From the NCBI GenBank assembly GCA_963920765.1, contig OY987246.1:2234501-2298500 (forward strand): a DNA stretch of 64,000 nt. The letters run 5' to 3'. How positions within the stretch are numbered: the stretch's first letter is position 1; every line of letters starts with the position of its first letter. The notes below the pieces were generated by a model. That model did no database searches and was not told where the DNA came from. It saw nothing but the letters and a program-made list of their open reading frames with translations. The stretch is from Ulota crispa (taxonomy: Eukaryota; Streptophyta; Bryopsida; Orthotrichales; Orthotrichaceae). This document shows, one piece after another, positions 9,101 to 57,054 of this stretch. A program made the position numbers and the translations under genes.

Positions 9101-11042
9101 ACGGGAAAGGTGAGTTGGTCAGGATGAACATTTTCTTTCCTCTTTCTTTCAGGGCATGTAGAAACTCCACAACTTTCGGCTGCATCCCGAGGAGTATAAC
9201 ATTGATTGACGAGTTTGAAAATTGTTTAATTCTACGTTCTGTGGGGACAGGATTTTTTGCTCATAACTTACAGCGGCTGTCAATGGCAAGGTTGAGAATA
9301 GAAGCACCATTAAGGACCTAATTCCGTCTCCACTACTGACCACAACTGGCTCTAGTGATGAAAATTTGGCCTCAGCTCTCGTATTCAAAGATGTCTCCAC
9401 AGGTTTATGTATCTATCTAAATCAAAGACCTACCAAAAATCACCCTTCTACGTATGTTAAAATGCTCAAAGTGACGCATGTAGTATCCTCTACCTAATGA
9501 CTACCACGATGCATGCAGAGGCTACAACAATGACAGATGGTAGAGCTGTCGAGCACGATACATTCTTTTGCAGGTACTTGGCCGGATCGCTCAGGATTTC
9601 ACGGTGCAAGTTCCCACTCCTGTGGATGAACTCAATGCTTTTTTGGACATCTTCGTAGACATAGGTGCAATCGAAATCCAACTTCTCATCCACAAAGTGT
9701 TGAATCACATCCGCCAACAGACATACCTGCACCCAGCTCCGCACCCCGGCTTCATATCTCGCCCTTGTGCCAATTAACCCTCCTCAGAACCATTAGTGAC
9801 CTGTAACTCTTTCCACATTACCTCCATTACCGACAGCAACTCATGTTTGCAATTCGTAGGACTTCTTAGCAAGTGGCCTACAACACTAGCAGTTTGAAAA
9901 GGCATAAAACTCATATGTAGTGAAGAAGATTCGATGGTTATAAATTCGGCTTTTCCTACCCAAAGTGGTCTTGCCACCAGTGATATTACAAGAAACCCAT
10001 TTTTGCATGTTGGTGAACATGCTCCGCCTTACCTCACTGAGGCAGAAGAGGTCCATCAAAGGAACAAGAAAACGCATGTGCTCCGAGCTCACATGCTTCC
10101 CAGGGTAAGTGGCCTCTAGGTCCTCCTCATCCAACTGCAAACAAAGTGAACTCTTAGCTATTTCAAAATCGTGTAACATGGAGTAACAAAAACCAAAGTA
10201 AACACCCTTGCAAAAGAAGTTTACATATAATACTACGGTTAGACGTTTACCCTGCGCCGGCCAAAAAAGCAGCCTCCAGGCTGAACCGAATGGAAGAAGT
10301 CCAGTTTCAGAAGGTACCCCATTTTCTTGTCGTAATACAAACCTCTTATGGGAAAGTTTGCATCGTACTGAAAATTCAAGCAGGAATCCGGGTACCTGTG
10401 CTGTTTGATATACATCCAGAAACTCTCCCTCTAAAAGCTTGAGCACCGGCACACTTTCAAAATCACTGAAAGCCAACCAAGGATTTAATTGTTTTATAAA
10501 GGCCGGTGCATCTAGTCCCGTGGCAAAACATGATATTCAAAACTCAACGAGACGAGATCTACTCACCTCTTGCACGAGATGGTTCCTGGCGAGCTCGTAA
10601 ATGATGTGTTGCAATGCAGGAGTGTAATGTGCCAAGGTGTAATCGTAGTCAAATCCATACACGTTGATCTTAGCAAGACGCACGTTATGATTTGCATAAA
10701 CACCTGCTTTTATTAAGAAGAAGAGTTCAGAAGCTGTCATTTGATACTGAAATTGAGAAATGGGGTATGGGAAGAGGGGTCAGTTGGTTACGTACCGCAG
10801 GGGTTCATCTTGGGCAGATCGGCAAGCTGGTCGGGGAGGTGGATGAAGAGTTTCTTGACACGGTCGAACTCGGTCTTGAGCTCCACCGTGTTCCCCACGG
10901 ACAGCTCTCCAGGGTTGCGTTGGTAGTGGCCCTCTCTCTCCGCAGGGGAGAGACTGATCGACTTGTCTTGTGTTCTCCGCACACGACTGAAGGGCTCCCC
11001 CAACTTCACCCCACTCCCACTCCCAAACAACTGCCCGAACAT
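6109..11042 (-). CDS. HAD-superfamily 5'-nucleotidase (cytosolic purine 5'-nucleotidase / NT5DC type)
   Basis: Twelve exons read on the minus strand: 11042-10796, 10703-10567, 10400-10251, 10134-10033, 9726-9562, 9179-9069, 8921-8827, 8402-8279, 8109-8020, 7591-7547, 6785-6471 and 6165-6109. All junctions are GT-AG and in phase, giving about 545 residues. If the last intron is not removed, the frame ends at 6444 with 535. HAD motif I is visible as FDYDYTLAHY (nucleophile Asp and second Asp), motif II as FILTNSP, and the metal-binding motif as YFGDHLFSDL. The family signature HRYPD...RGLYYD follows motif I. The C-terminal part has the conserved TLTD-like, YADVYTS and PHHIK blocks. The family dephosphorylates nucleoside monophosphates such as IMP/GMP in the cytosol; exact substrates are inferred. 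The start MFGQLFG lies exactly at a segmental-duplication breakpoint, and the gene diverges from the GH81 gene. Confidence 0.92.
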
Positions 11043-12294
11043 CGCTACCCTATGTCAGAGATTCCTGTTTCAACAATGCTGTGCACTTGGAAGCTTAACC
11101 CTCCGGTGTCTGTCAGCGCTTTGGGACAAATATCGGTTCATCCACCGTCCGCAATCATGCACCATCTCAGATTCTCCTTCCTTTCATGCATCGTTTCAAT
11201 TACTTGCTCAGCCGTAAACCCCATACTTGATGTGCACTCACCCCTAAATGACCGAGGATTCATGGTATGAAACTGACCAATTCAACCGAAAATACAATCA
11301 ACATGGTACCATATTTTATGTCACCGGAAAAAGAAACTTGAACAGGAAAAAGGTTCCTTGATGACCCACTATAATTGCTACACGAGACCTGATTTGAGCT
11401 TCTTGATGCTGTAGAGGCTAATGTAGCAGAACCAGGCGAACAGAAAGAGAGTTATCTATCTAATCTCTTCATAGATTCATGACCCACCTTCTGAAACGGG
11501 AAGCACTTGATCTGTACCATGCTCAGTGCCTCCGCTTTTGGTACAGAAATTCACAGAAAATTAGGTCTTGCAAAATTAGGGCATCACTTGGTGTTCAGGT
11601 GACCATTCCCATCCCCTTGAAATCCAGAGAGATGGGTCCCATCAGGCGTCGGCAACAGTCTACCCGTACCCGTACCGACCTTTGGGAGCAATTAGGTCAC
11701 ATTCACGGAAACCATGGAAGTCCAGATTCAAAAGGTACATGTGGAGGAGCCACTCCCATCTGCCACGTACACGTTTGCTGACATGGAAACAAAACGAGAG
11801 TTTCGTAATTCGTTGTTACTACTTACTAGTTGCTGCAGAAACCGTGTCTGTTCTCGATCTTCAATGCTCATCAAAGTCCGCGCCGGCAGTTGATTGGTAA
11901 CTTAGTGATCCCAAATGGTAACGGATTGCTGAGTAAGTTAGTAAGTTAGCCTTACAAGATCGCTGATCGTTGTGTGCAATCAGAGCTTCCGTAATCTGTT
12001 TCATCTTCTCCTGAAACGAACCGCATAAACCGCAAGGATCCGTTTGAATCACCGTTTGCCTTGGTTGGAGCTCCCGAATTGCCACTTCTCGTGGTGTCAA
12101 AATCATGGGCTTGATGTATTGGTGGTAAGTCCAAAGAGACAGTGCCTGAGGTTGTGATTGTGAGAGATCGAGGACGAGGGCGTCGGTAGTGGATCCGTGA
12201 GCATCTTCATCAGTGAATTGCAATCGATTGTACGTCGCGAGGAGAAGCGTGAATTTGTGTGTTGGAGGGGTTTTAGGGTTTTGTGGATTGGGCG
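11043..12294. promoter_or_regulatory. Divergent intergenic region between 5'-nucleotidase and GH81 gene
   Basis: About 1.25 kb separates the two start codons, so it should contain both promoters and 5' untranslated regions. A telo-box-like motif, ttttagggtttt, lies at 12271-12282, about 15 bp before the GH81 ATG. Such motifs are common near plant transcription starts. The long open frames seen on both strands here have no recognisable domain and overlap the GC-rich GH81 start. Confidence 0.5.
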
Positions 12295-15200
12295 ATGGAG
12301 AAGATGGGGAGCTTGATGGAAGCGCTGCGGCACCACAAGAGTCGGCCAACGCCGATACACTCGCACCATCACCAGCCGTTCCCGGCAGTGGAGAATCATG
12401 CGGCACCAGCTCCGACCTCGCTCTGGGCGCCGCGCATCAAGTCCCCGCCATATCCAACGAACACGCCGTGGCAGAACTTCGTCCTGAACGCCGGCACATG
12501 CCATGAGAATCTGCATCCGTTTCTCGTGCAGCTTCAACCGGATTGCTTCTCGCTGTCCCACCCTCCACGAGCTCCAACGTCCGCATTCATCTTCACGCCC
12601 TTTGTCGCCGATCTTACCTTCCGCCTCCTGGAGCCCTGCCACTCCTCCTCGCACGTCATCTCCCGCTACGACGATCTCAGCCTCACTGTCGACTTCGGCA
12701 ACTTTGCAGTGCCGTTAGTGCGAGGATCCCCGTACATCACCGTCCTCGTCTCCGAGGGCACACCCGCGTTTTCCACCATCCACGCCGTGGTTGGCTTTTG
12801 GGCGAATCACAAGCGTACCAAGCACCGCATCACGCTCAACAACGGACAAACCTGGGTGGTGTACTCGTCCTCTCCGCTACATCTCTCGTGTGAACTCAAA
12901 TCTGAGTGTGCATTCCAAGGCGTGATACGCGTGACGGTCGTATCCGGACGTGAAGAAGGTGAAGATGACGAGAGCTTGCTTGACAAGTACCGCAACTGTT
13001 ACCCGATCGGGGGTGTTGTTGAATTCTATGAGAATTTTGAAGTGATTTACAAGTGGGAGACTCAAGGCGATGGTGAGCTGTTGATGCTGACGTTACCTCA
13101 ACATCGAGAGATTATGTCCAATTGTTACACGAGGACGTTACCGACTGTTTCGTTTCGAAGCTTGGATGGCGATCTGCAAGGAGTTGTGGGACATAAGTGG
13201 GGGCTGTTGGTGAAAAACCTGGAGCTTCGGTGGCACTCGGCAACGGGGATTCATGATGTGCAAGCGAGAGCTCAAGTTGTGGAGGCGCTGGAACGGGATG
13301 TCAGAGAGCTTGTGGCGATCACCACCCCGTCAACTTATTTTCATGGGAAGGCTCTGGCGCGTGCTGCGAGGTTGGCTCTCATTGCGGAGGAGATGAAGCT
13401 GTTCAACCTTGTTGGGAAAGTGGTGGAGTTTTTGCAGAAGGCGATTACTCCGTGGTTTTTGGGAGAGTTTCAAGGGAATGCGTTGGTGTATGATACCACT
13501 TGGGGTGGGATTATCAGTCGCGATGGGTCGAGAGATCCGGGCGCTGATTTTGGGCTTGGAGTTTATAACGATCATCACTTCCATCTCGGCTACTTCGTTT
13601 ATGCAGGTAATGTGCCAGCCCTTAGCACTCTTGTCTCACATAAGAACCTCTTCTCAATTTTTTGTTTATTAAAAACCAGCACATCCTTGCTCCCTCCAGA
13701 ACTATGTTGATCACAACATGGCTTATGAAAGTTGGTCATTTTGAAATCATGAAATCTTGTTCCTTTAGGAATAGAGTCTGGGCTCGGATACATCTCCAAT
13801 GCAGGTTTGCTTCAACAGCCAATTGAGCTCATATCAGAACCATTTTGACTGATGAACTCTCATCTCTCTCTGTTTCGTTCAAGTTGTGCGCAATGCAGTT
13901 TTTCAGGGGTCGTTTAGTTGCAGTGTTTGATTTGTTGCTGGTTCGTTGTTGTGGTGTGTTGTGTGACGCAACAGGTGCGGTGTTGGCGAGGCTGGACCAT
14001 TACTGGGCGCAGAACTTCAAGCCCCACATGTACGCCCTCATCCACGACTACATGAGCATAGAACGTCATGACTTCCCCCGCCTCCGCAATTTTGATTGCT
14101 ACACGCTGCACTCGTGGGCAAGTGGGCTCACAGAATTTGCCGATGGACGCAACCAGGAGTCCACCAGTGAGGCAGTGCATGCTTACTACGCAGCTGCTTT
14201 GGCAGGGTTGGCTTACAACGACTTCGACATGGTGACTCTTGCCAGCACTCTGTGTGCTCTTGAGAATCGAGCTTCGCAGCTCCTGTGGCATGTGCCGTCG
14301 AGCAGCACGCTGTACGAGCCTGAGTTTGTTGCAGAGAATCGTGTGGTGTCCATAGTGTGGTCGACCAAGCGCGACAGTGGCTTGTGGTTTGCAGGTGAGA
14401 ATGACACCATGAACTCAATCACGTCACAATACTTCAACATTAGGGAAAATTTGATGGATACCCCTGAAGTTTGCGATATTTGTATAAATCCCCTGGTTTT
14501 TCAAAAATTGCACGGGTACCCTTAGACATGATTTCCAGGGGTTTATTTTGTTGTGCTCGTCTCTTCCTTCATGACCAACGTTGAAGCAGGGAGTGCCATA
14601 GGACAGAAAAGAAGCAATTTGCGCACAAATAGAAAAGGAAGTGACATCCACAACGTAACAAACGCCTTTAAATTACAATCCAAGGGTATTTGTGCAATTT
14701 CTGAAAAATCAGGGGTATCTATACTAATATCGCAAACTTCAGGGGTATCCATCAAATTTTCCCTCAACATTAACCCTCAGTCCTCACAAATTTCTTCTCA
14801 TATCCGAGGGTCACTTACTTAGGTCTCTGTCTTTCCTCATGTTTTCACTCACTATAGATCATACCAAAATGAAAGTCCGTACTTGATAAAATAAATTATT
14901 TAGGTTTTGATCATTTTGAGTAATTTACATAGAAACCTGCAGTCGACATGCTTCGAATGAAAACACCGTCGAACTTGAACATATATTTATGGATCTGTCA
15001 ACAGTCATAGTTGTTGGCTCTTGAAAGCTACATTTTTCAAACTCTCATATCTCACTTGATTTTACTCTTTTTTTGTGATTGAACAACGTAACAAAATTCT
15101 GATAGGGTTTGTAGAGTTGACTGAAATTGTCATCACGTGGACTGAATTAGTATTTTTGTGGCTGATATACCCCCGTAGGGTCTTCGATGGCATTTTAGTA

Positions 15201-15595
15201 GTAAGAATGAGGATGTAAGTATTATGATGTCGAAAGTTGTTCTGAACTACCTGGAATTGTTTTGAAAATTTGTTCGTGCAGGGGCTGAGCGGCGTGACTG
15301 CCGGCTTGGCATCCAAGTGCTGCCCATAACACCCATCACGGAGGACATGTTTCGAGACAAACGGTACGTGAAGGAGCTCGTGGAGTGGACCATGCAGTCC
15401 ATCAACAACGAAGGCGTGACGGATGCATGGCGAGGCTTCGTGTACGCCTTGAAAGCCATTTACCACCCCACGGCTGCACTGGAGGAGACCCTGAACCTCA
15501 ATGGCCATGACGATGGCAACTCCTTTACAAACCTTCTGTGGTGGATTCACACACGGCAAGCGCTTTCTTCTCACCCACAGCCACTGCAACGCTAA
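12295..15595 (+). CDS. Endo-1,3-beta-glucanase, glycoside hydrolase family 81 (copy 1)
   Basis: Three exons: 12295-13606, 13975-14394 and 15282-15595. GT-AG introns and phases match, giving 681 residues. The first ATG in the open frame is 12295. The beta-sandwich-like N-terminal half begins after a His/Pro-rich leader; the catalytic half carries YDTTWGG, DPGADFG, NDHHFHLGY (Asp at about 426, the likely acid) and GRNQESTSEA (Glu at about 499 and 503, the likely base region). It ends with the conserved LGIQVLPITP and LLWWIHTR blocks. GH81 enzymes cut beta-1,3-glucans such as callose or fungal wall glucan. I see no clear signal peptide at this start: the N-terminus is charged and His-rich, so secretion is uncertain. 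Intron 2 contains a Mutator-like MITE. An essentially identical second copy lies 37,600 bp downstream. Confidence 0.93.
14443..14763. mobile_element. Mutator-like MITE in GH81 intron 2 (copy 1)
   Basis: The ends form long inverted repeats of about 75 bp starting GGGAAAATTTGATGGATACC. The element is flanked by a perfect 9-bp direct repeat, TCAACATTA, at 14434-14442 and 14764-14772. A 9-bp target duplication with long TIRs starting in G is characteristic of Mutator-like elements. It is 321 bp long with no transposase, so it is non-autonomous. It sits wholly inside the intron and does not touch the splice sites. Confidence 0.9.
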
Positions 15596-17913
15596 GCTAT
15601 ACAGCAGCTCTGAGGGAGGGTGAACTCAAAGGTCGGTATTTTGTTCACAGCCCAGCTCTCACTCTCTTCATTTGCACCGAACTCTCCCTCTCTCTGTTTC
15701 TTCCTTACTTTCTGTCTTTCTTTCTTATTGAAGGTGGTGTAGATATTGTGGATATTCGTAGATGGTATTGATAAACTGTCACGCATTTGGTATTGCCGTG
15801 AAGTTAAATGACACTTTCAAGTAGAGTGGGATTTTAGCATTGCTCGAGTCCACGCTAAGGAAAGGTTTTAGTGTGGGCGACAGCAATAAGAGTGCTTTTA
15901 TGTGTAAGCCTCTCTTGAAGAATTAGATTAGAGGACACTCCGGGATTTTGGAATTGTGGTGCGTGCAGCCACGAAGCGAAGTCAAGTCACGCAACGTTTT
16001 GTATTTTAGTGTTCCATAGCTTAGTTTTATGCAACTGATTCCAGATCTCTCACTCGTTTTCTGTAGAGTTGGCGTGTATGGAAGGCATTGTAGGTCGTCT
16101 ATTTGTGTTGCAATGAAGAAAACAGAACAAAATGAATGGAAGGCGGGTCTCAGTTTTAAAGATTTTCCCAACATGTTTGAAGCATATCTTGTTTCTAGTG
16201 AGATTATGTAAATATCAAGGTAGGTATCAGTAGAAATGTGATATGCATGCATGTATGGGCATCAGTGTATTTATTGGGGTGTATTGGTTTGAATGTGATA
16301 AATTTATTGTTAGTAGTATCGAACATTCAATGTTTGCCTCTTTGATCCTATGTGGCCATTAAAATATGGTAGTGAGAACTGGAACCAAATACGTTAAAAT
16401 ATGATTGATTGACTCTAACCATGGTATACAAAATTCAGTATTATGCAACAATATTTCAAATTAAGTAACGAAAAAAAGAATTGTTATGAGAGTTAACATA
16501 TTGAGATATTAGAGTAGTAAGGGTTGTTATTTCCATAACAAAACTACATTATTTTCACAGTACTAAACATTACTTTACTGGTTCAACCAAGGGTATAAAA
16601 AAAGAACACCATGATAAATAAATAAAAAGGGCCTAGATTATGAAGTATACCCTATGCTCTTCATATCCAATGTTTGGTTGCCACCTTAACAAAAAATGGG
16701 CTCCATTGAGGTTATCATAAAAGTCAACTCTATTGGGAACACTTGCGCAAATTATGAACAAGTTTTTCATCCAATGTAAATTATGTTCAAATGAAATCAT
16801 TTTATAATTTTGTAGGTAGTTTTTCATATCATATGCTTATAGAAATAGTGAATTATTACATTGGTGGAATCATGCACATGTGAAGCATGATTGCAACAAT
16901 GCATTACATCTTTGGCAGGCCACGACCATGATTTTGACATAAATCGTAGTTAAAATAATGTTATTGCAAGTCCAATAGCATGAGATTATTTCTTATATAC
17001 TACTCTTTTTTAGTCAATGCAAGTGCCATGAACTTATGAAACTTACCCTTTTTGTTTTGTGATCAATATTTGTGATCTTTACACTAAGGCACACACAGAG
17101 ATTAGAAGCTTGAAAATTTGAAAACAAGTGCACAAAACCCTACTTTTGGTCACAACATTACATCAACATGCTTGAAGAGAAATAACTTTAAAAATACTCA
17201 CAATTTTCTTGGTTGTGAACTAAAACTACTAACCCTTGGAACTCCTCTTCCAAGACCAATTACCCTTTGAACTTATCTTCTTTCAATATTAGGCTCTATT
17301 TTTTTTGAAATTTTCTTTCTCCTCAATTTTGCATTTTAATAATCACACTCAAGGTGTGTGGCATCACTACATCCAATTGGCTCAACTGTTGATATCTAAG
17401 AAGCTAGAACTAAAGTGCAAGCATTTGGATTTGGTCTGCCAAAACGCAAGTATGTAATAAAATTCGGCTTGTACGAAGTAAATGGTTTTTTTGCAAAAGT
17501 GCAAGAAAACAAAAACTCCATCATGAGCGCAAAACACTCCTCAAATTTAAGAGTGAATTTGCAACATTTTCAAGCAATGTTTTTTGTGCTAATTATTTAC
17601 ATTTCAATACAAAATGAAACAAAGATTGTAAGCAAAGTGAGGCATGCTATCAACAAAGTTTTGAGAAGTGCTTCAAGAATTTATTGCAATTGATGAAGCA
17701 CACAACTATTGTTGCAACTCTAGGTTACTTTCACTTTCACAATTATTACAACTTTTCCTAAAAGATTTTTTAGGGTTTAACCTTTATTCCCTAAAGGCCC
17801 AAGTGTTCCCTTGGGGGTCAATTTTACCCACCCAGAGGCGCACCCAAACTTGTGAGGGACCGTTTAGAGCCCTCACTTAGGCTCATGTGCAGGGCCCATG
17901 TGCAAGGCCCTAT
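15596..17913. other. 3' flank of GH81 copy 1, no gene recognised
   Basis: The first few hundred bases should be the 3' untranslated region. From about 16200 the DNA becomes very AT-rich, with only short meaningless open frames. The phrase ttaacctttattccctaaag at 17777 resembles the ends of the TTAA elements elsewhere in the window, but I found no partner end. This stretch is duplicated at 53196-55513. Confidence 0.5.
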
Positions 17914-18215
17914 TGTTAGAAGTTGATACTTGTGTTGAGTGAAGAGTGTTAGGATAAGGATTATATTAATAGGCTCTACACATAATTAACTAGAGTTCAT
18001 TGCAGTTTACTTTAGTAAAGGGATCCCATGGACTATAATTAGAGGACTTTTACTTTCTATCTTTACTCTATATATAGTGGGGAAAACCTACTTGGAATAA
18101 CACTCTTGTTATTTATTTTTGGTTGCATACTTTGGTTCTTTGTTGTGTTCTCTATTCCCAATACAATTGAGCTATTTTCTTTTTGAGCTACCGTATTTTC
18201 TTTTTGAGCTTTGCC
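17914..18215 (+). promoter_or_regulatory. Promoter region of the two-exon gene, possibly a solo LTR fragment
   Basis: The stretch starts TGTTAGAAGTTGATACTTGT and has a strong TATA-like tatatatagtgggg at 18070-18083, about 140 bp before the ATG. The TGTTAG start, TATA box and TTTG/GAGCT-rich leader are reminiscent of a Copia-type LTR. However, I could not find a matching CA end, a target duplication or a second LTR. Just before the ATG, copy 1 carries a short tandem repeat of tattttctttttgagct that is absent from copy 2. Confidence 0.35.
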
Positions 18216-18855
18216 ATGTCGGGTCCTTTTGGGAGCGCAAAGTCGGACAGCAACTTACAACCGCGGCCTCCAAGCACAGATTCACGCACATATTCGGAGA
18301 AATTGGACGATCTGATGAAGCAAGTGGACTTCCTTATGGAGGAGAATGAGTTTTTTAAGAAGGAGCATATCAAGCGACTTCACTATAGAGAACTCACAAA
18401 AGCGTGGTGCACTAGGGATTTGGTAACTTGCGCCGGTGAAATTTGGAAGCGGTGCGTTCTGAAGGGAGGAGGAGGCGGAGAGACTGGGCTATGGGATGCA
18501 AATAAACAACAATTTGTTCAAGTAAGTTTCTACCTCCTTGCTTGCTTTCCATTTCTTTTGTGGAGGTGGTTAATCAAAAAGATTCTAATGCTATTCACTC
18601 TTGTAACAGGGCGCAGGGACTGCTATGTGCATGAGTGGGGATATTCCTATGATGATGGAGATTTCACGAGAGTGTATCCTCGCTTGCAACGATGCAGCGC
18701 ATTTCACAACGATCAAGAGTCTCGACGAGGCTGTCCTTAACAGCGAGAGAGCAATTCTCATGTTTCCGGAGTTGAAGAATTCACACACTAGCGAGTGCAG
18801 GACGATTATGAACTATGGACGTTTTAAGACCTTTCTTCCAGATAACTTTGTATAG
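18216..18855 (+). CDS. Unknown two-exon protein, coiled-coil N-terminus (183 aa, copy 1)
   Basis: Exon 1 is 18216-18521 and exon 2 is 18610-18855, with an 88-bp GT-AG phase-0 intron. The protein starts MSGPFGSAKSD, then has a charged, probably coiled-coil stretch (EKLDDLMKQVDFLMEENEFF, about residues 28-47). Next is a Trp/Cys-containing block (KAWCTRDLVTCAGEIWKRC), a poly-Gly run (GGGGG), and a conserved C-terminal half with LACNDAAHF, LDEAVLNSERAI and MNYGRFKTFLPDNF. I do not recognise the family. Conservation of frame, intron and C-terminus in the diverged paralogue at 55760-56384 argues that it is a real gene. It lies between GH81 and the shugoshin-like gene on the same strand. Confidence 0.75.
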
Positions 18856-19131
18856 TTTTGTCTCCCTGGCTAGCGCTTCAGCAAACTCTTGACTTCTAAG
18901 AGTACTAGGTTAAATTGAAATCCACATTGAGATGTTCTTGTTCTAGCTTTATGGCGCTTTGTTTCTTTCAACCTAAAATTGTTTTGTTAGGAGGCAGTGC
19001 TATGCATATGCTGCCAATTTTGTTGAATCACAGTGCTCCAATCATTTAGAAGCAAGCAGAAACTCTTTTGGAGAGATAGACTACGTCAATAAATTGAAAT
19101 CCGCACTGAGGTGTTCTTGTTCTGGCTTTAA
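18856..19131. repeat. Imperfect tandem duplication downstream of the two-exon gene
   Basis: A segment beginning ttgaaatccacattgagatg at 18914 and continuing through 'ctagctttatggcgctttgtttctttcaa' is repeated from 19091. The second repeat is split by the TTAA element at 19132-19899 and resumes at 19904. The same tandem pair exists, unsplit in its second unit, in copy 2 near 56440-56700. No coding signal is seen. Confidence 0.7.
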
Positions 19132-19899
19132 CCCTTTAGGGCCGAGAGAGCCAGTTTTGGTTGATTGAAACACTATTTTTGAAATAGCTTTTTAAGCATG
19201 CTGCGGTTACAAATGACATGTGAACAAAGTTGGAGGGCACGGGAATTTTGGATCAAACCAACCCATGTACATTGTTGTTGGATTTATAATGAATCCAGAA
19301 GCTTGGATTGAAGTGAGTCAAGCTCAAGGATTGTGAGTAAAAACTGTACAAAAACCCCCTCACTTTGCAATGCTTGAAATTCTTGTCCAAACTCAAATTG
19401 ATTTGAAATAATTTTCATATGCTTGGTATGAAGGTCATCTACCAGATTGCAGTTTATCAAATTCACATTTGGGCTCTAAAAAGACACAAATTTGACCTCA
19501 CAACACCGTGTCTAATTTTAGAAATAATAAAGCCCTCAACCTAGCATGGATGTGTTATAATCTTTGTGGTCGCTTGGGCAAAGCTTGCAAGATTTGACCA
19601 AGTAATAGATCTAGTAGTATGTATTCCATCTATACGGATAGATCTTGACAAAATCTAGCCATTTATTGAGAAAAGATGAAAAAAGGCTGCTAACCAATGA
19701 TCTCAAATATGATTTTCAATTTTACCTCAAGTGGCTAAAAACACTATTAAAAAATTTAAACTTTCAAATCTAACATTGTAAAGTTTCAGAAAAAATTAAT
19801 TCCATAATTTTGTTGGTAGCAATTCGCTAAGCTTAGCCAGTTTAAAAATCAAAGTGCTCACAGCTACCCTGAGCCGGGGGCGCCCTCCGCCATAAAGGG
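19132..19899 (+). mobile_element. piggyBac-like TTAA MITE 'A' with empty site in paralogue
   Basis: The element is 768 bp, starts CCCTTTAGGGCCGAGAG and ends CGCCATAAAGGG. TTAA lies directly outside each end (19128-19131 and 19900-19903). The paralogous site at about 56643-56656 reads ggctttacggca without insertion, which shows directly that this is a transposed segment and that TTAA was the target. TTAA targets with CCC...GGG termini are the hallmark of piggyBac. No transposase frame is present. A related copy, inverted, is at 33470-35013. Confidence 0.88.
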
Positions 19900-20281
19900 T
19901 TAAGGCGCTCTGTTTCTTTCAATGTAAAATTGTTTTGTAAGGAAACACACCTTCGTCCAGTCCTTCTGAAGTTCTCTTGGCGTTTCATGCGTGCATTTGC
20001 CTGTCTTAATGTTTCCTTCTTGCTGTTTAATAGTCGGTTCTCGTGTATACCTTCCTTCCTCGTAACCCTAACTTGCTTGTCAATGTTGTAGGGACACTAT
20101 CTGCTTCATGTTGTGTATCTTCTATGGTAACACTCTTCTCTAGAACAGTAGGCACGTAATGCTGATTTTGAGTGAATGTTTTCCCGATGCGCCGAGGCTC
20201 CTGATGCGACAAACAGGGGAGAACATACAGAAGCGCGTAACCCGTTCATTGTAGAATTGTATACAGTGTGTGATTTTGAAG

Positions 20282-22568
20282 AAGAAGCTGGCCGGGGAGT
20301 CGAGGACAGGGAGAAGGACGTTGGGAGCAACACCGCCCCACAGGCGCCGCCTGTCAAATATTACCAACCAGGTTGTCAATGGCAGCAGCTCAGCTGGTCC
20401 AATGAGAATGAACTTGTCAAGAGCATTATTTTACAACACCAGTGATTTGCAGCTTCAGCAGGTGATACACTTAACTTTAGTTTCTTGCCCTACATGCTTT
20501 TGTTGTGAAGGTCACTCAAGCTTGTTTTTAGGTTTTCATCGCCTGGTGCATTTCCACAGCCAGCTAATTGCACCACCAGGATAGTGTGATCGACCTTTTC
20601 CTGCCGTGACTTGTACCCTCTCTGACATGGTATAAGCGGACAATCGCTCTTTTTTCATATGTAACTTAATCCTCAAGAGTGCCTCCTTGCTTGTGCCGTA
20701 TCGCGTGATTGGGAGCTGCTTTAGGAACCGAGGATCTTTTCCGCATTCGCAAAGCTTTTTTAATTATTTCATATCTTAGCCTAAGTTCGACCGTAGATTT
20801 CTTTGTTTTCGTGAATGTGATGATGCTAGATAACCAAGATACATTTCGTCTTACTTCTCCGACAGATGTGGGATCCGTGGATGGTTATAGAACTAATTCT
20901 TTGTTCTGCTGTAAGCAGGAGATCAAGAAGCTCGAGCAGATAAACGGCGAGAAAGATATGATCATAGCTGAAAAAGAGTATCCACTCCAGGTTTATTGAA
21001 GTGGACTGTATTCATCTCGAAATTTGTTTTAACCTGATTGGCACCAAATCCATTATAGTTGAATTTGATGAATTAGTACTTTTGTGACTTCGCCACTTGG
21101 AAGGCCAAGTTAATTTGCAGTGTCTACGTTTCGGTGTCTAGTCTCAGTTCTAATGCTTACGGCTCGTTCCGAATGCTTCTTACTGTATCAGGATTGCTGC
21201 TGGGGATTTCTTAATGAGGAGTAGGTTTTAACTTGAGAACAAGAGATCGCTATCTAGATTCATTTTCCTGCATTATTGGTGGATGTTGATGCTTCTTCAT
21301 ACAATTGATGCCAGCGCAATGTGTCGTAGCTTATACCTTAATCATTTTACACAGTCAGGAGATAGAATCGCGAAAGCTCTCCATGCATAAAATGCAGAGA
21401 GAATTCTATACCAACATTTGCGAACGATCTCAGCAGAATGAGGAAATTATCAGCTTCAATACCCGCCTTTCTAAGGTAGGAAGGGTTTATCTGCTTCGCT
21501 CTTCTCAGTGACTTTTTGTAGTGGCTCGGGTGTAAACCGGCTGAATGATTAGGCTCCCTGTTCGGCATTGGTGTTATATATTTGCAGTGCAATTTTTACT
21601 CTGACTGAGTTTTGTCCCATTATGGCTTCGGTGAGTTGGTCCCTCTGAAAGAGATTGAGATACTGAGCTGTTTTGAGCAAAAGGTGAAGTTTTTTTTTTT
21701 TTTTTTCTTTCATTTGTTTCAGCACACCTAATTCTCTTGTTTCGTGTTGCTGTAAATTATTCTGACAGGGACTGAGCTACGCGCGCGAACAAGGAAGTAC
21801 TCTATCTTCAATGTCCCTTCGGATCATATCCTTACTCCTCCCGTCCAACCGCCTGCGCAGCTCAAATTGTTACATCATGAGTACACCCAAATGGCACACG
21901 TCTACAAAGTCCAATGAGAACGAGCTGCAGGTACTGCATGCTCTTCTTTTGTCTTTTGTTCAATCTTCAACGATGGTTTCCCCTGAAAAATAACCCCGAT
22001 CTACGTTCGAAATGTACATCGCTACTAGTTTGAAACAGCCTCATACTTTTTACTTCGACCACGATGTTACCGAACGGGAAATGATAGCAGATGATTTCAA
22101 TCTGTGGTGAACCTTTTAACCACAAAGCTTTTCGGCTGTCACCCTTTACGCAGACAAGACTAGCAGAGATACAAGATCGATTGAAGCGGTTTTGTGAGGA
22201 GAAGAAAGAGAAGGTAAACAATGGAAACGGCAAGGCTTCTGTTTTGATGTCCTACGTTCTGTCTAGACCTTTTTTGCCTTACCTTGTTTGTGTCTCTCTG
22301 GTAGCTTGCATATTGATCATGAATTCACGACTCTCATGAAGTTCCGCTAGAAAGTTTGTGCAAGGAAGACTGCATAGCACAGAGAAGTATTTAGTCGTTT
22401 GATCTCGACCTCTTCTCATCGGACGTTTTGATGTGTTTTCTGGACATCCAGGGTTCCAGTGTTCTGGTTAACATAAACGAAATTCCTACAAACGTCACAC
22501 GAAGAACTCGAAACAGCTCTGCACGAGGACATTCAATGGTCGAAGGAGTTTGCCCCTCTTGGCATTGA
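20282..22568 (+). CDS. Coiled-coil protein with shugoshin-like N-terminal motif; start codon apparently lost (copy 1)
   Basis: Six candidate exons, 20282-20461, 20919-20990, 21359-21475, 21769-21930, 22154-22213 and 22452-22568, each have a length divisible by three. Each is bounded by AG/GT, giving one frame of about 235 residues ending TGA. The N-terminus has RRRLSNITNQ, which resembles the RRKLGDITN motif of plant shugoshins. Coiled-coil exons follow (KKLEQINGEKDMI, SRKLSMHKMQREF), and a basic stretch near the end (VTRRTRN) could be the C-terminal basic motif. Shugoshins protect centromeric cohesin in meiosis. The codon aligned with the ATG of the truncated paralogue (57055) is AAG here (20282-20284), and no other in-frame ATG precedes it after the last stop. 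The gene may start in an unseen exon or be dead. Confidence 0.5.
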
Positions 22569-23166: not shown

Positions 23167-25212
23167 CTATCGTGGAGGATTGTTTTCTTTGTTATCAACT
23201 TGAATTTGACCAACAACTTGTAATCCTTTGAGAAACTCAACACCAGCAGCAGAATCTATAATGTTCACAATCATAATTGGTGAATTTGTGACATTCCCGA
23301 ATTGATTGCATGAATGTGTATTTGAGATCGATGGACATGCCAATGTTTTCATCTAGTATGCCTTTATCTCATTCTCCAAAATCTGGTATCCAGTTGAAGA
23401 TCCCCAAAATTCATCATCTGCAAAGGAAACACTTGAATTGTTGTCCATAACTGCCACTTCTTTGCCAAAACATGATTGAGTGAATGAAGAATCAAGTATT
23501 GAAGGATTACTAGATGCAATGGGAGGATTGCTTGGTGTTGTTTTTGCAACTTCAATGTCCATAACATTGGAGGATTCCAATTCCTTTTGTAATTTGTATC
23601 TTCCCATTTCTTCCTCAAAAGCTTGTTGAAACTTCAAAAGTTTTCCACCTTGCTTTTCACATGCAATTACACGTTGCATGGCTAAATCTCAAAGTTCCTT
23701 CTGGCTTTGATTGTACTTGCAATCAATAAATCATAATTCAAAAATTAAATTGAAATAGATTACATGCAACAATAGTATACCTTAAAAGGAATTCACTATG
23801 CAACTATTTAATTTAATTTAAATTTCATGCATTATACTTCAAGTGTCACTTACTATAATTCAATTGACACTCACGTATAAACTAAACAAAGTCAAGCGTC
23901 ATTCAGCAAGTATCACTTACTTGGAATATGATTTCGAATCTCTGTGTCCAGTTAATTCCATCCCATACTCAACTGGTGTAAAAGCATCTTTGAGACGGGT
24001 TATGCCTGTCTTGTTCGTAATTTTTTTGCAAGCAAGTTCAGGTATATCTTCAGTAAGTTTTTTTGCAATATTCCGTAAAGTATTGATGCCAACTGGAGAT
24101 TTCCCAAACCAAACCGGATCATTGAGTTTAAATCTTGGCTTCGGAGTTAAAAAAGGAGGATGCGGTCCTTTGTCTTTGAGAGACCACACAAGCCGCTTCA
24201 ACATCATCATTTTATAAGTGTCAATAACATCCACAATTGGGCAATCAACAAGTGGCCTTTGTTGTTCAATTGCAGATTTTGATATATCAAACTTCCAATT
24301 TTTGGAAATTGCTTGAGTAAATCGCAGCACCTCGGTCCCAGTCGAGAGGACATGTAAACAAAAATCAGCATCACTACAATTTCTTAACTCTGAAGCTGCT
24401 CTGATAAAGAAACACTTGGTACAAAACCAACTGAATTGGTAGTTAACCCTAGTAGGACTATTGATTTGGCATTTTGGCTGTGATAACATTTTTTGCTCTT
24501 CATCAGGAGTAAGAATATCACTACGCATTGTTTCCCTACCAATACCAGCAAGTTTAGATCGAGTACCAGCCTCATCACCGGCAATTTTTACACTGTAATA
24601 TCTTGGATCTGTGAAAATATGAAATGGTAAACTCTTCAAACTAGTTTCAACATTGCGCTTCTCCTCCCTTGAACGTATAAGTCGACCAATGCCACGGATC
24701 AAGCCTTGTATACTTCCGGTAAGGTACATTGTACCGTCTTTTTTTCTTGCTTGAAGAACAAATTCACACAACAAATCAACAAACGGCTTGATGTTATCCA
24801 TTTCTGAAAGATCCTCAGTGCTCTTTTGTGTATCAAGACCTCTAAAGTGGCGCCATTTGTCAAACACATTTTGGGCCCATGATTCTGCGGCCTTACTTTG
24901 ACGACGACGTCCACCGGCCTTAACATTGTTAAATTTGGTCTAATCCAATGGAGCAAATCGATCAATGGAAATACTATGTCCAGGAGTAATTTTACTAACA
25001 GCATCATCACCTTCACTTAATTCTCCTAATTCATCAAATTCCAACTCTGGATCAAAAGCCTGATCAAAAGCTTCAAGATCAGCATTGTTATCGGTAATTC
25101 TACTTGAAGACACGAACAACGAGTTGTAAAAAAATTTAGGAGCCTCGTAATTTCTCTCAACAGCATCATCTACACTTTGAATATAATTAACTCCTCCTTT
25201 GTCCGGCTCCAT
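23167..25212 (-). pseudogene. Decayed tyrosine-recombinase-like gene (Crypton / DUF3504-like)
   Basis: One minus-strand frame runs from an ATG at 25212 to 23917 with a single internal TAG (24942-24940). A further block (23706-23167) follows after a short AT-rich interruption, with an internal TGA (23691-23689) and TAG (23355-23353). The N-terminal 90 residues are acidic. Around residue 156 lies ARKKDGTMYL, then GLIRGIGRLI, FIRAASELRN (position of the first catalytic Arg), FTQAISKNW (Lys) and, near the end, ELTGHRDSKSY (GH plus Tyr). This order matches the Crypton-derived DUF3504 tyrosine recombinases (ZMYM2/KIAA1958 relatives). The expected H-x-x-R box before the GH motif is missing (TNKTGITRL), so the copy seems inactive. 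The C-terminal block ends NKENNPPR. The family call is from motif memory only. Confidence 0.6.
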
Positions 25213-33159: not shown

Positions 33160-33469
33160 CCCTTTAGAGACCACCAAACCACATTTTGGTTTGGGAGAGT
33201 AGTTTTTGGCCTATACAATAAAATTGCTCAACAATTTGGAAAATGATCTTGAAGAACGCTTGTGATCACAATAATTTTGCATCCAACCCAAGAAACGACA
33301 ATGGAATTGGATATGTGAGTTGATAAATAATGGTGTTTATACATCATGGCCTCAAAATACGTATCCATATTTGGTCAAAGATGGATAAAAGCAACAACAC
33401 AATACATCAAAAATCCAAGAAGAATGCCACATTCCAATTGTGCAATCTTAAAAAATTTAGATTGCTTAA

Positions 33470-35013
33470 CCCTTTAGGGCCAAGGGCGCCCCTGGCCCAG
33501 GGTCACTGTGAGCACTGCAATCCTTAAAGTGGTTAAATTAGGGAGATTGCTACCAAAAAATTATGCAGCTAACTTTTTATGAAACTTTACAATGTTAGAT
33601 TTGTAAATTTTTACTTTTTAGTAGTTTTTTTAGCCACTTAAGGTAAAAGTGAAAATTGTATTTGAGATCAATGGGTAGCATCTTTTTTCCATGTTTTCTC
33701 AATAAATACTCGGATCTTGTCAAGATCTATCCATATAGATGGAATACATACTACTAAATCTATTACTTGGTCAAATCTTGCAAGCATAGCCCAAATAACC
33801 AAAAAGATTATAACACATCCATGCCAAGTTGAGGGGTCATAACTTCCAAAATCATATACAGTGTTGTGAGGTCAAATTTGTGTCTTTTTAGAACCCAAAT
33901 GTGAATTTGAGAAACTGCAATGTGGTAGGTGACCTTCATACCAGGGTGAATGCATGGTTGAGTGGCTCAAAATCGTGTCACACTATAAAAAATTGCACAC
34001 ATCCAATTTTCAAATGCCTAAAAAGGTACATTGGGAATTTTTAAAAAAAGAAAAAGAAAAGTCCATTGTTGAGACTTAAACTTCAATACAACTACAATGA
34101 TGTTGTTTAGTTTCATGTTTGACATTTTATGGAGGTGTGGAGGACTTTTGAAAAAACATGAGTGTAACATTTCTGCTGTCAATAAGTTTTTCAAGGACTT
34201 TTTAAGATAACATAGTTCCTTAAGAGAATACAAAAGACTAGGATTCTACTGGGTATTTGGATAAAATTTTAAGAAATTGTAATCTTGTTTTGTAAATGTG
34301 TATAGAATGTTTGCAAAGGACTTTTTAAGGCTTTTTTAAACCTTCAATCTTATGAGTTTTTTTTCTCCTTTGTTTTTTTTTTTTGTTTTTCCAATTTCTC
34401 TTTTTGCAACTTGAGTGATTTTTTGAGTTCTAAGTGCGCCTCTAGCAATAAGGACTTTTTGAATAACTTTGATTGATTTAAGTCTAGGCCCTAGAATATA
34501 GCCTGCAGTGGGTAATTTAAAAAAGAACAGATCTAGAAACATTGAGCTGTTGGATTGAGTTTATAAGTCCATTGTAGATATGAAGAGGCCACTTAACCAA
34601 TAGGACACTTCATGCAATTACAAGCTAACACTTGAATCAAAATCCTTAAACCCACTTAAGGGACTTTGAAGATATGGACTTTTGCCAAAATTGAGCCACT
34701 CAACCTTGCATTCACCCACCAAGCATATGAAAAATATTTCAATTGAATATGAGTTTGGACAAGAATTTCAAGCATTGCAAAGTGAGGGGGTCTTTTTACA
34801 ATTTTTACTCATGATTCCTTAGCATGACTCACTTCAATCCAAGCTTCTAGATTCAATATAAATCCAATAACAACGTACATAGGCTTGCTTGATTAGAAAT
34901 TCCCGTGCCCTCCAACTTTGTTCCCATGTCAATTGCAATCACATCATTCTTCAAAATTTATTTCAAAAAAACGGCTTCAAACAACCAAAATTGGCACTCT
35001 CAGCCCTAAAGGG
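33470..35013 (-). mobile_element. piggyBac-like TTAA MITE 'B', inverted relative of element A
   Basis: The ends CCCTTTAGGGCCAAGGGCG and CAGCCCTAAAGGG are bounded by TTAA at 33466-33469 and 35014-35017. Internally it matches the element at 19132-19899 in the opposite orientation (for example the phrases around gatctatccatatagatgga and gaggtcaaatttgtgtcttt). Removing the 774-bp insertion 33944-34717 and its 4-bp duplication leaves 766 bp, against 768 bp for A. Confidence 0.87.
33944..34717. mobile_element. 774-bp TIR element nested inside TTAA element B
   Basis: The ends GGGTGAATGCATGGTTGAGT and, inverted from the right, GGGTGAATGCAAGGTTGAGT match at 19 of 20 bases and continue with GGCTCAA. 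ACCA is found on both sides (33940-33943 and 34718-34721), a possible 3-4 bp target duplication. Comparison with the uninterrupted relative at 19.1-19.9 kb confirms that it is an insertion. The superfamily is unresolved. Confidence 0.82.
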
Positions 35014-35876
35014 TTAAGGAATACACTTGTATTGTTTCTCTATATGGTAGTAGTACAATTGTAGTATTTGAGAATCCATTGAAATGACACTATCATTTTA
35101 TTTTAAAAAAAATCATCCTACATTTAAGGCCAATTCTTGATTGCTTTCACCAATTGGATTTTCCATAACAATTATCAAATTTCTTGAAGAATTGTTTTAG
35201 GGTAGCAAAGAAAATAGGATTTTTGACCCTTTTTGTCCACTTAGCTACACCTTGTGATTGCTGTTTTTGTCTATTTTGTGTGAAACTAGTCTTGTTGGAA
35301 AGGTGGGAAACCTTGCTTTTTAGAAATGTAAGGCTCTTCTCAACCAAAGCTTGCATGAAGCATTAACATTCAAAACCACACAAGCATGAATAACTAAAGA
35401 TTTTCCATCGGCTCACTCAATCATTATAATATTTCACCTCCAACGGTAGATCTAGCTGAAATTTTGACACATTACAACAAACAAGGTGTCCTTCACATAT
35501 GTACGGTTGGATTATTCAAATTGGGTCCATTTTTATTCAAATGCACATCTAGTTTTATTGCCCTGGTTTCAAGTGAATTTTGGGAAAATGTGTGTGGTCT
35601 TTAAAGGGTTAATAAAAGATTTAATAAAAGACTTAGCATCCATGTTATTCCAAATTGATATCTTTATAGGTCTACCTTATCATATAAAAATTTCAACTAT
35701 GTACTACAAATAGAAAATTTGACATTTGAAACTTTAAAAGCTTTTGAATTTATTCAACATAGGCATGCAGAGATTTTTGTAAATTTGACTATGCTAGTAA
35801 TTTTATAGATATCATGTCAAAGCTCATTATCTTTTAGTTTGTTTTTGAAATGTATAGAAGAAGTCACACGTAATAA

Positions 35877-40635: not shown

Positions 40636-43369
40636 CTAATGTTGAGTGGATTCACCGGTCTGACCATGTGGAGAACTTGAAGTCCTTTTCTTGCTGATAA
40701 CAGTCGACAACCGTGATCCGAAGCTTGGCTTTTTAGTTTTCTCCTTAATATTCGCCATAAACTGTAGCACAGCCTGCATTTCCGATCCCTTGGTTACTAA
40801 ACTGAAAATGGCAAAACAATGTAGTACAACTCACTTTGAAGTGTAAACACATAGAAGAGAACCACCTGCGTGACATGTAATCAAAATTCACAAGATCAAC
40901 TTAAATGCATACCTCTGTTCCTTTTTGGGCAACATCCAGAGGCGGTAGCATCCACGGATTTGGTACCAATTCAAGCTTCTGGAGGCCAGTCAGTTTGGCA
41001 AAAGATGCAGGTAGCGTTGAAATAGAATTGTCGCAGATGCTCAACTCCCGTATGCTGGGCATATCACCAATAGCTTCTGGAAGTTCTCTTAGTGCAATGT
41101 AATTTGACGAAACATCAAGTATTGTCAAATTAGGGAGGTGACAGAGGCTATCAGGGATACTCTCCAACCGATTGTAGTGCACATGCAATTCCACCAAATT
41201 CGTAAGATTTGGAAGTGTCGTTGGCAACCGCTGCACGTCGTTCCAGTTGATATTCAACTGCTCAAGTGAGGTAAGATCACCCATTGCTTCAGGCAGCACT
41301 TTCAGATTATTGAAATTTGCTATCAGCTCCACAAGTCCTGTACAAAGACCGATTGCGATGGGCAACTCTTCAATTTTATTCATTTGAATATTCAAGATTC
41401 TCAAATTAGTGAGGCATCCAAGTGTCTCTGGAAGCTCCGTCAGCAAGTTGGTTGCGACATTCAGATACGATAGCTTGCTCAACTCCCCAATGGAATCGGG
41501 CAACGCTTCCAGATGGTTCCCTGTAGAGCAAGACCCCGAGTGAGATGTTTAGTTACCAAAAAATCGTCATATTTAAATCGATCGTGGTATATGTTTGAGA
41601 AAGGCCCAGTGAACAGTATACAGTAAGCAATTGTATGAAATCTACAAAGAGGGCAGATTGCGAGTTTCAGTGACAAAAAACTTTTGAATCATGAAGCCTG
41701 GAAAGGGGAGAACAAAATTCTAATGGTAGACTAAGTTCTTACACTCCTCATGATGCTCCCGTATAACCAGGTACTGCGTTCCTTGAAAAACGTACTAATA
41801 TTCTACAAGAGAGATTATGCTAATCACCAAGGCAACTACTTATCGTAGAGAAGGATCCACCAGACATTGCATCAGAAAAGAGTTGCTCCAGCCCGGGTCT
41901 AAGGCAAGGCTCGCACCAAGACATGAGCCTTGCTTTCATGCGCCACATTTCATTGAAAATGGGGACCCTAAACAGCAAATTGATGGATCGGACTTAGAGC
42001 ATGTCATCAAATGACTTGCACGAAAACTGTACTATCAAGTTCAATAATCACTGGTGTTCCTTGAACACAAATCCCCTAGTTATTCAGCACAGCCTCAACA
42101 TGCACTCAAAAGAAGTCTTCAAATTTGGACTTCTCCAAGACCAATAATTCTTAATGATTCATGTACCTGATAGATCAAGCGCAGTCAGATTTGTCAGCTC
42201 CCCTATTAATTTAGGAATCCTCTCTAGCTGTATGTTTGAAAGTTTTAACTCCGTCAGCTTTTGCTTCTTAGCTTCTTCGATAGCGCTCAGCACCTTCGGG
42301 GAATACCATGTGGCTCCGTCCTGGTGGTCCTCATGATCTGGGTGCGGACCTGATATTACAAAAATAAAAATTACGAAAGCCTGAGAAATTTGGCAAGGAA
42401 TGGAATCTAAATGTGATCGACAACTAGTCGACGAATCTATCCTCGAGGCAGTTCAGAAGATCAGCAATAGTGGGCATGCCAATCACGGCATACCGGTCGG
42501 TATCACACTCAATCATTCGTTATATATCTGTTCAAGTTTAGCAAAGTGCACGAACAAACAAGTCTATTGCACACGTCAACAAGAAATTCCAGCAAGCAAT
42601 TTCTGGAACGTGTGACTACGAAGAAATTGGGGTTCTAAAGCATATCAACGCTGCTTCTGGATACAATAATACAACTCCTATTATTAAAGCGCCTCAAGAA
42701 TAGAGCATAAAGCAAAGCAGTACCTGCAATTGGCGCTTCTTGTGGAATTGTTCTTCGACTGAAGTTATTTGCTGAACTATCTAAGTTCACAGTAGATGTG
42801 GACGCTTCAAATGAACGGCTCCCTAATTGAACACTTGACGGAGTGCTGGAAAATGACGGGGAAAAGCTGGTGTCCTCGGAAACAGGAGGAAGAGCGTTGT
42901 TGGTTAGGGCATGCGATGCAGCACGTTGTGCTCCTTGTATCAATGCCTCGAACCGTTCGTGCATGTCATCTAACTCTTGGATAGCCACATAGTCGCGCTT
43001 CCGGTCCTGGGCCTTTAAGAACAATTAAGACTAGTATTAGAACTTCGTGCATACTCGATACAGTCTGAATAATGTGTAAGTATCCTAAGTTCAGGAAAAC
43101 ATGAGGAGCAAACAATTTGAGTAACAGTCAAACCTAACGCCTCTCATGAGAATGTACGCCGGCAGTACCTTTTTACGGATCAAATCTTCACTCATCTGCA
43201 GATAAGCGCGGTAAGGGGCTTGAAGCTGGTCCAGCAGAGTAGCCGCACTAGAGTCGATCTGTTCGATCACCCGTGTTGCATTTCGTAAATCTTCCGGGCT
43301 AGGACGAGGAGGTAACTTTGCTTTCAGCTTCTTAATATCTTCTAGAGCAGATTCCATATTCTTCCCCAT
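40636..43369 (-). CDS. Plant intracellular Ras-group-related LRR protein (PIRL-like), 472 aa
   Basis: Five exons on the minus strand: 43369-43169, 43012-42724, 42349-42167, 41520-40913 and 40773-40636. All are GT-AG and in phase. Residues 1-100 are a charged, helical leader (MGKNMESALEDIKKLKAKLP), followed by a Ser-rich linker (about 105-150). From about residue 180 there are roughly nine leucine-rich repeats of the short L..LP..IG.L type, such as LPDSIGELSKLSYLNV and LPEAMGDLTSLEQLNI. The C-terminus is a basic, Ser-rich tail (KKPSFGSRL...) without membrane segments. The repeat type and layout match the plant-specific PIRL family, thought to be cytosolic scaffold proteins related to animal Ras-binding LRR proteins such as SHOC2. 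The start is the first ATG that opens the conserved frame; an upstream in-frame extension lacks an ATG. Confidence 0.88.
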
Positions 43370-48622: not shown

Positions 48623-49894
48623 CGAACATTGCTACCCCTAACAACAAGATTCCTGTTTTAACAATATTGTGCACTTGGAAGCTTAACCCTCCGGTGTCTG
48701 TCAGCGTATTGGGACAAATATCGGTTCATCCACCGTCCGCAATCATGCACCATCTCAGATTCTCCTTCCTTTCATGCATCTTTTCAATTACTTGCTCAGC
48801 CGTAAACCCCACTTGATGTGCACTCACCCCTAAATGACCGAGGATTCATGGTTTGATAATGTCCACTTCAACCGAAAATACAATCAACATGGTACCATAT
48901 TTTATGTCACCCGAATCCGCATGCAAGCAAAGAAATCTGATCGAGAGAAAGAGTTCCTTCATGACCTACTATTATTGCTACACGAGACCTGATTTGAGCT
49001 TCTTGATGCTGTAGAGGCTAATGTAGCAGAACCAGGCGAACAGAAAGAGAGTTATCTATCTAATCTCTTCATAGATTCATGACCCACCTTCTGAAACGGG
49101 AAGCACTTGATCTGTACCATGCTCAGTGCCTCCGCTTTTGGTACAGAAATTCACAGAAAATTAGGTCTTGCAAAATTAGGGCATCACTTGGTGTTCAGGT
49201 GACCATTCCCATCCCCTTGAAATCCAGAGAGATGGGTCCCATCAGGCGTCGGCAACAGTCTACCCGTACCCGTACCGACCTTTGGGAGCAATTAGGTCAC
49301 ATTCACGGAAACCATGGAAGTCCAGATTCAAAAGGTACATGTGGAGGAGCCACTCCCATCTGCCACGTACACGTTTGCTGACATGGAAACAAAACGAGAG
49401 TTTCGTAATTCGTTGTTACTACTTACTAGTTGCTGCAGAAACCGTGTCTGTTCTCGATCTTCAATGCTCATCAAAGTCCGCGCCGGCAGTTGATTGGTAA
49501 CTTAGTGATCCCAAATGGTAACGGATTGCTGAGTAAGTTAGTAAGTTAGCCTTACAAGATCGCTGATCGTTGTGTGCAATCAGAGCTTCCGTAATCTGTT
49601 TCATCTTCTCCTGAAACGAACCGCATAAACCGCAAGGATCCGTTTGAATCACCGTTTGCCTTGGTTGGAGCTCCCGAATTGCCACTTCTCGTGGTGTCAA
49701 AATCATGGGCTTGATGTATTGGTGGTAAGTCCAAAGAGACAGTGCCTGAGGTTGTGATTGTGAGAGATCGAGGACGAGGGCGTCGGTAGTGGATCCGTGA
49801 GCATCTTCATCAGTGAATTGCAATCGATTGTACGTCGCGAGGAGAAGCGTGAATTTGTGTGTTGGAGGGGTTTTAGGGTTTTGTGGATTGGGCG

Positions 49895-52800: not shown

Positions 52801-53195
52801 GTAAGAATGAGGATGTAAGTATTATGATGTCGAAAGTTGTTCTGAACTACCTGGAATTGTTTTGAAAATTTGTTCGTGCAGGGGCTGAGCGGCGTGACTG
52901 CCGGCTTGGCATCCAAGTGCTGCCCATAACACCCATCACGGAGGACATGTTTCGAGACAAACGGTACGTGAAGGAGCTCGTGGAGTGGACCATGCAGTCC
53001 ATCAACAACGAAGGCGTGACGGATGCATGGCGAGGCTTCGTGTACGCCTTGAAAGCCATTTACCACCCCACGGCTGCACTGGAGGAGACCCTGAACCTCA
53101 ATGGCCATGACGATGGCAACTCCTTTACAAACCTTCTGTGGTGGATTCACACACGGCAAGCGCTTTCTTCTCACCCACAGCCACTGCAACGCTAA
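49895..53195 (+). CDS. Endo-1,3-beta-glucanase, glycoside hydrolase family 81 (copy 2)
   Basis: Exons 49895-51206, 51575-51994 and 52882-53195 are the exact counterparts of copy 1 shifted by 37,600 bp. I see no change in the encoded 681 residues. The catalytic Asp (NDHHFHLGY) and the Glu pair (NQESTSEA) are intact, as are all splice sites. The upstream region is duplicated too, although its far end is diverged and the divergent 5'-nucleotidase is missing here, so regulation may differ. Two intact identical genes are compatible with recent conversion and dosage, or with an assembly duplicate. Confidence 0.93.
52043..52363. mobile_element. Mutator-like MITE in GH81 intron 2 (copy 2)
   Basis: Same element as at 14443-14763, with the same 9-bp duplication TCAACATTA on each side (52034-52042, 52364-52372). 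Its presence in both copies at the same site shows that it was inserted before duplication, or was copied by conversion. Confidence 0.9.
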
Positions 53196-56384: not shown

Positions 56385-57054
56385 TTTTCTCTCCCTGGCT
56401 GGCGCTTCAGCAAACTCTTGACCTCTAAGAATACTAGGTTAAATTGAAATCCACATTGAGATGTTCTTGTTCTAGCTTTATGGCGCTTTGTTTCTTTCAA
56501 CCTAAAATCATTTTGTTAGGAGGCAATACTTTTCCAATTTTGTTGAATCAGAGTGCTCCAATCATTTAGAAGCGAGCAGAAACTCTTTTGGAGAGACAGG
56601 CTACTTTGATAAATTGAAATTTGCATTGAGATGTTCCTGTTCTGGCTTTACGGCACTTTGTTTCTTTCAATGTAAAATCGTTTTGTAAGGAAACACACCT
56701 TCGTGGAGTCCTTTTGACACTCTCTTGGCGTTTCATTGCGTGCATTATCTTGTCTTAATGTTTCCTTCTTGCGGTTTAATAGTCGGTTCTCATGTATACC
56801 TTCCTTCCTAGTAACTCTAACTTGCTTGTCAATGTTGTAGGGACACTATCTGCTTCATGTTGTGTATCTTCTGTGGTACTGTAACACTCTTCTCCATAAG
56901 AGTAGGCACGTAATGCTGATTTTGAGTGAATATTTTCCCGATGCGCCGAGGCTTCTGATGCGACAGACATGGGAGAACATACAGAAGCGCGTATCCCGTT
57001 CATTGTAGAATTGTGTACAGTGTGTGATTTTGTATACAGTGTGTGATTTTGAAG

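Follow-up and report, generated by a model that had tools for sequence, protein, structure and literature searches.

The window, the 64,000-nucleotide stretch of DNA analysed here (C5:2234501-2298500), contains two directly repeated segments, copies A and B, each with an open gene of the GH81 family in a nearly identical core flanked by diverged arms. Homologous BLAST blocks pair 11036-19130 with 48623-56650 and 19900-20325 with 56648-57098. A partial, inverted third copy, copy C, lies 18.3-20.8 kb beyond the window end. The features are as follows; positions are those of the window unless the contig is named.

11374-18090, plus strand: core of copy A, two mismatches in 6,717 positions against copy B at an offset of 37,600
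48974-55690, plus strand: core of copy B, from the alignment to copy A
11036-11373, plus strand: left arm of copy A, diverged counterpart of 48623-48973; occurs twice in the genome
48623-48973, plus strand: left arm of copy B, from the alignment to copy A; two places in the genome
18091-20325, plus strand: right arm of copy A, including an insertion found only in A; third copy at C5:2317288-2318407, minus strand
55691-57098, plus strand: right arm of copy B; homology with copy C extends to 57201 and resumes at 57609-57862
12295-15595, plus strand: GH81 gene of copy A, predicted exons 12295-13606, 13975-14394 and 15282-15595, 681 aa
49895-53195, plus strand: GH81 gene of copy B, PF03639 match; predicted protein identical to that of copy A
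14442-14764, no strand assigned: palindromic dispersed repeat in predicted intron 2 of the GH81 gene, copy A; self-inverted match of 72%
52042-52364, no strand assigned: palindromic dispersed repeat in predicted intron 2 of the GH81 gene, copy B, counterpart of 14442-14764
17890-18090, plus strand: terminal part of the core, shared with copy C; the three-copy test used 17955-18090
18216-18855, plus strand: predicted small gene in the right arm with two exons, 18216-18521 and 18610-18855, 183 aa
19132-19899, no strand assigned: 768-bp insertion found only in copy A; TTAA at 19128-19131 and 19900-19903, ends CCCTTTA...TAAAGGG

Judged from its sequence, the core gene is a member of family GH81 and a predicted endo-beta-1,3-glucanase. 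Its exons were assigned by eye with GT-AG introns, and the reading frame is open. Pfam matches on the joined exons cover positions 12-314 of 323 in PF03639 and 6-348 of 349 in PF17652; both the N- and the C-terminal GH81 domains are complete and lie nearly end to end in the predicted protein, whose best match among solved structures is 4k35_A (E 1e-48). A PF03639 search of the genome (274.8 Mb, 157 contigs) found GH81 at these two places only (2/2 candidates). A literature search for glycosyl hydrolase family 81 in moss found no papers, and one for GH81 together with bryophyte glucanase returned a single paper, on brown algae.

Elsewhere in the window, a 340-aa open frame (23920-24939, minus strand) has a DUF3504 match below the curated cut-off (25.2 versus 29.7 bits) and may be the remnant of a Crypton-like tyrosine recombinase. 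Two ankyrin-repeat frames (59523-60827 and 61243-62457, both on the minus strand, the first with a PGG domain) and a leucine-rich-repeat frame of 215 aa (40904-41548, minus strand) are also present. Neither ARAGORN (bacterial code) nor Rfam, applied at its gathering scores, gave any tRNA or other non-coding RNA in the window.

The identical core and its diverged arms

Aligned to each other, the two cores stay 37,600 apart throughout and differ at 2 of 6,717 positions, with no indels, in agreement with the earlier note. The only mismatches are 17412 and 17834, and at both sites copy A has A and copy B has G. They sit 1.8 and 2.2 kb past the GH81 stop codon, so that 11374-17411 (6,038 bp) is free of differences. 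Both fall within the last 679 bp, which has a one-sided probability of about 0.01 under uniform placement in a test picked post hoc, and the tract may therefore be of two ages. The plateau also covers the introns, the dispersed repeat within them and 2.5 kb after the gene. Since the closest mismatches beyond the core are at 11373 and 18091, its edges are sharp to the base, again in agreement with the earlier reading.

For the remainder of the core, a DNA search of the genome with its first 1,001 bp (11374-12374) found two places (2/2 candidates scored). With 14526-18090, two full-length places were found among the 40 of 3308 candidates that were scored; the short piece in copy C was not among them. 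The large number of candidates is due to the dispersed repeat: ~250 bases at the start of 14526-18090 have matches at many genome places among those 40 scored. The DNA searches thus covered 11374-12374 and 14526-18090 of the core.

The arms are considerably less alike. In total, copies A and B differ there by 125 substitutions in 1691 positions (7.4%) and 11 indels: 21/311 and 4 indels in the left arm (11061-11373), 77/954 and 4 indels in the right arm, and 27/426 and 3 indels in its distal part. The 768-bp insertion of copy A is missing from copies B and C. Alignment of 11036-20325 to 48623-57098, the check proposed in the earlier note, thus bears out its account of substitutions, indels and an insertion in the arms, and gives a near-identical plateau (2/6717) inside older, diverged homologous arms (125/1691). 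At the arm rate, ~497 differences would be expected in the core (log10 P of two or fewer = -210, single-rate Poisson). Even at 1%, the rate of the slowest binned 200 bp of arm (18400-18599, 2 differences), ~67 would be expected (log10 P ~ -26). The argument that neutral divergence after a single duplication could not yield such a plateau is thereby upheld.

Divergence is raised close to the core. Within 100 aligned bp of the edges, 32 of 200 sites differ, compared with 93 of 1491 at the remaining arm sites. Cut-offs of 50, 75, 150 and 200 bp give 14/100, 18/150, 42/300 and 43/400, each above the rest of the arms, with a weaker effect at 50 and 75 bp (p 0.016 and 0.032). The effect comes chiefly from the right edge, where 5% of windows are as high, while the left 100 bp alone are unremarkable (19% of windows). 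Raised divergence near the edges fits a homology-dependent process that stops at poor homology.

Some further observations concern the arms themselves. The insertion at 19132-19899, presumably a small piggyBac-like element, and 33465-35017 belong to one family of small elements with TTAA flanks and CCCTTTA ends; the former resembles a shortened form of the latter. At 18445-18600, across the predicted exon-intron junction at 18522, copies A, B and C are nearly identical, unlike the remaining arm, owing either to constraint or to three-way exchange. The 183-aa product of the predicted gene around this junction has no Pfam match. Sequence more distantly related to the right arm lies at C5:865176-865580 (78% identity over ~395 bp).

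The third copy and the history of the right edge

Copy C crosses the right edge of the plateau and reaches ~200 bp into the core. Its matches to A or B are piecewise and extend over C5:2316757-2319330; somewhat further on, only B is matched (57609-57862). Its core end carries an inserted 718-bp palindrome (C5:2318545-2319262, 93% self-complementary). Because copy C spans the right edge, the core end and the right arm must have been contiguous before the triplication.

In the right arm the three copies are about equidistant outside the plateau: A and B differ at 104, A and C at 105, and B and C at 93 of 1373 columns, and the sites unique to A, B and C number 57, 45 and 46. Across 17840-18090, where the alignment is poor at the beginning, A and B do not differ at all in 234 columns, whereas each differs from C at 34. 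In the well-aligned part (17955-18090) all 7 informative sites are unique to C, as against 46 of 148 in the arm (Fisher p 0.0004). Hence, judged against copy C, the tract and the flank on its right have conflicting histories. Since the core ends of A and B are identical with only C differing, and the arm is equidistant, the right edge falls within an older duplication, after which A and B were homogenised. This test applies to the right edge, as copy C does not extend to the left one. The earlier proposal, that the GH81 gene was recently covered by interlocus gene conversion, gains support from these incongruent histories. The donor was also sought by means of copy C, but its distances to A and B are nearly equal (105 and 93 of 1373) and the core ends are identical, so that the comparison with copy C gave no signal for the direction of conversion.

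The arms appear to be mosaics. Labels of unique sites are clustered along the right arm (73 runs versus a shuffle mean of 99; 0 of 10,000 shuffles had as few), and clustering persists when the badly aligned 18091-18300 is removed (53 runs versus 72; 0 of 10,000). The strongest segment groups B with C to the exclusion of A over A-coordinates 18980-19958, with 22 sites for and 2 against; none of 5,000 shuffles scored as high, and it amounts to ~210 aligned bp since the insertion found only in A lies inside it. The best A-C segment (18223-18231, p 0.004) falls in badly aligned sequence and was set aside; no A-B segment in the arm is more than weak (best p 0.07). The clustering together with the B-C segment makes older exchanges among the three arms likely, but fast change in A or uneven constraint could mimic them.

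Explanations for the plateau

On the evidence of the alignments, we regard it as highly probable that the core goes back to a single recent gene conversion between the two loci, or to a long homologous replacement equivalent to it. An old local duplication would have given rise to three or more related segments: A and B, which share one orientation, and C, which is inverted and truncated. At a much later time, A or B would have been repaired by homology from its partner 37.6 kb off, a step that would have replaced about 6.0-6.7 kb, the entire GH81 gene included, and left the middles of A and B identical and their outer parts diverged. We infer a one-way transfer in a single event. The route may have been synthesis-dependent strand annealing or a patch of break-induced replication. 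With the Arabidopsis rate of 7e-9 per site and generation taken merely as a ruler, the tract would be ~21,000 generations old (2,600-77,000). Against conversion it can be said that the arms, at 92-94% identity, seem less alike than typical human conversion substrates, and that exact local copies can arise otherwise, since elsewhere in this genome 1,900 bp are duplicated exactly between unrelated flanks.

That duplicate matters for the alternative which the earlier note had ranked first, namely an assembly artefact in which the reads of one copy built, filled or polished both cores while the actual second core is absent or has diverged. An identity of 99.97% over 6.7 kb is indeed the look of wrongly reused sequence, and the same assembly has the exact pair C1:168126-170025 and C1:295251-297150, in direct orientation 127 kb apart; this pair carries an LHC-like gene, occurs at two genome places and shows no target-site duplication by eye. 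For comparison, local pairs were picked by eye among the 56 matches to the LHC family (chlorophyll a/b-binding protein) in the genome. One of these proteins, among the best 60 of 647 rows of its structure matches, scored highest against 9vfj_2 (a 620-residue LHCI-2 entry) and then against 8htu_U and 7xqp_a, the latter two being Physcomitrium patens entries, a lead towards a moss. Of the local pairs, one on C7 is 91% identical in the longest of its blocks (2,050 bp) and 86-91% in the two that follow, a pair on C6 is 91% identical over 2,096 bp, and the main blocks of a cluster at 21.4-21.5 Mb on C4 reach 92-98%. An inverted pair at 4.76 Mb on C4 (C4:4758500-4768400) is 99% identical over 731 bp and has unrelated flanks. 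None of the LHC-family local pairs compared shows a plateau inside diverged arms. As other local duplicates remain 91-98% identical, the assembly does not flatten all duplicates, yet exact short ones still occur. Moreover, the window and the flanks fetched around copy C contain no N, C5 is a contig of 25.6 Mb, no third place was found for 11374-12374 (2/2 candidates) or for the GH81 domain, and two differences are retained between the cores, though these could be polishing errors. An artefact is therefore kept as a rival, but a weakened one, which we consider unlikely.

The position of both core differences in the last 679 bp and the mosaic arms would also suit a stepwise homologous replacement, either by unequal crossovers via extra copies, which direct repeats 37.6 kb apart can undergo, or by two overlapping conversions of different age. 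An extra copy of the core was not found by the PF03639 search or the DNA searches (that with 14526-18090 scored 40 of 3308 candidates and overlooked the piece in copy C), and a single tract suffices; such a course thus appears very improbable. Purifying selection on an old duplicate could be considered given the open enzyme gene in the core. The plateau, however, also includes the introns, the dispersed repeat in one of them and 2.5 kb beyond the gene, and the core end has diverged freely in copy C. Selection cannot account for identity of this non-coding sequence and was rejected, with hardly any probability left to it. The same negligible standing is given to a recently moved mobile element, for instance of the CACTA type with the gene aboard. 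Close to both edges of copy A a 9-bp inverted match (CCCACTATA / TATAGTGGG) was seen by eye, but its left part is altered in copy B, no target-site duplication is visible by eye, the arms past both edges are homologous, and copy C has the core end contiguous with the right arm at the right edge. Terminal inverted repeats combined with target-site duplications at both copies, as expected of CACTA or other DNA transposons, were not observed. One recent duplication with fast-evolving arms was also ruled out, because A, B and C are about equidistant in the arm and each has its own indels and insertions.

Gene conversion thus being preferred for this tract, a broader and rather doubtful conjecture may be added. 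This genome, taken to be active in homologous recombination, might repeatedly overwrite kilobases between local copies more than 5% diverged; its only two GH81 genes would thus stay alike, in effect a single gene shared by two places, with several rounds recorded in the locus of A, B and C.

Comparison with known conversion systems

Long conversion tracts between paralogs obscure how old duplicates really are and can preserve uniformity among gene copies. Gene conversion is a well-known process, and the locus is a clean example of it rather than a new kind; a tract with base-level edges, arms diverged by ~7% and a third copy as reference is nevertheless a useful natural example in a moss. Among GH81 endo-beta-1,3-glucanases (4k35 and others in the PDB), the product resembles the known enzymes in carrying both Pfam domains nearly end to end, but it is predicted from a three-exon plant gene and is known from sequence.

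In human haplotypes (PMC10172114), interlocus conversion tracts are reported to average 6.26 kb, with the top tenth above 14.4 kb, and their substrates are mostly of higher identity than 92-94%. Human segmental duplications likewise show transfer of whole genes between local duplicates, and 6.7 kb is ordinary beside that mean. The present case differs in that conversion is deduced from one assembly and no population, and in that its arms lie below most human cases in identity. Physcomitrella is described as repairing DNA by homologous recombination at an extraordinarily high rate (PMC3729371), and concerted evolution of its tandemly arrayed genes has been reported, with conversion proposed for highly similar local duplicates (PMC3045890). 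The likeness is that highly similar local duplicates in a moss are ascribed to conversion. In those arrays conversion was suggested by overall similarity, whereas here the edges, the arms and a third copy are seen.
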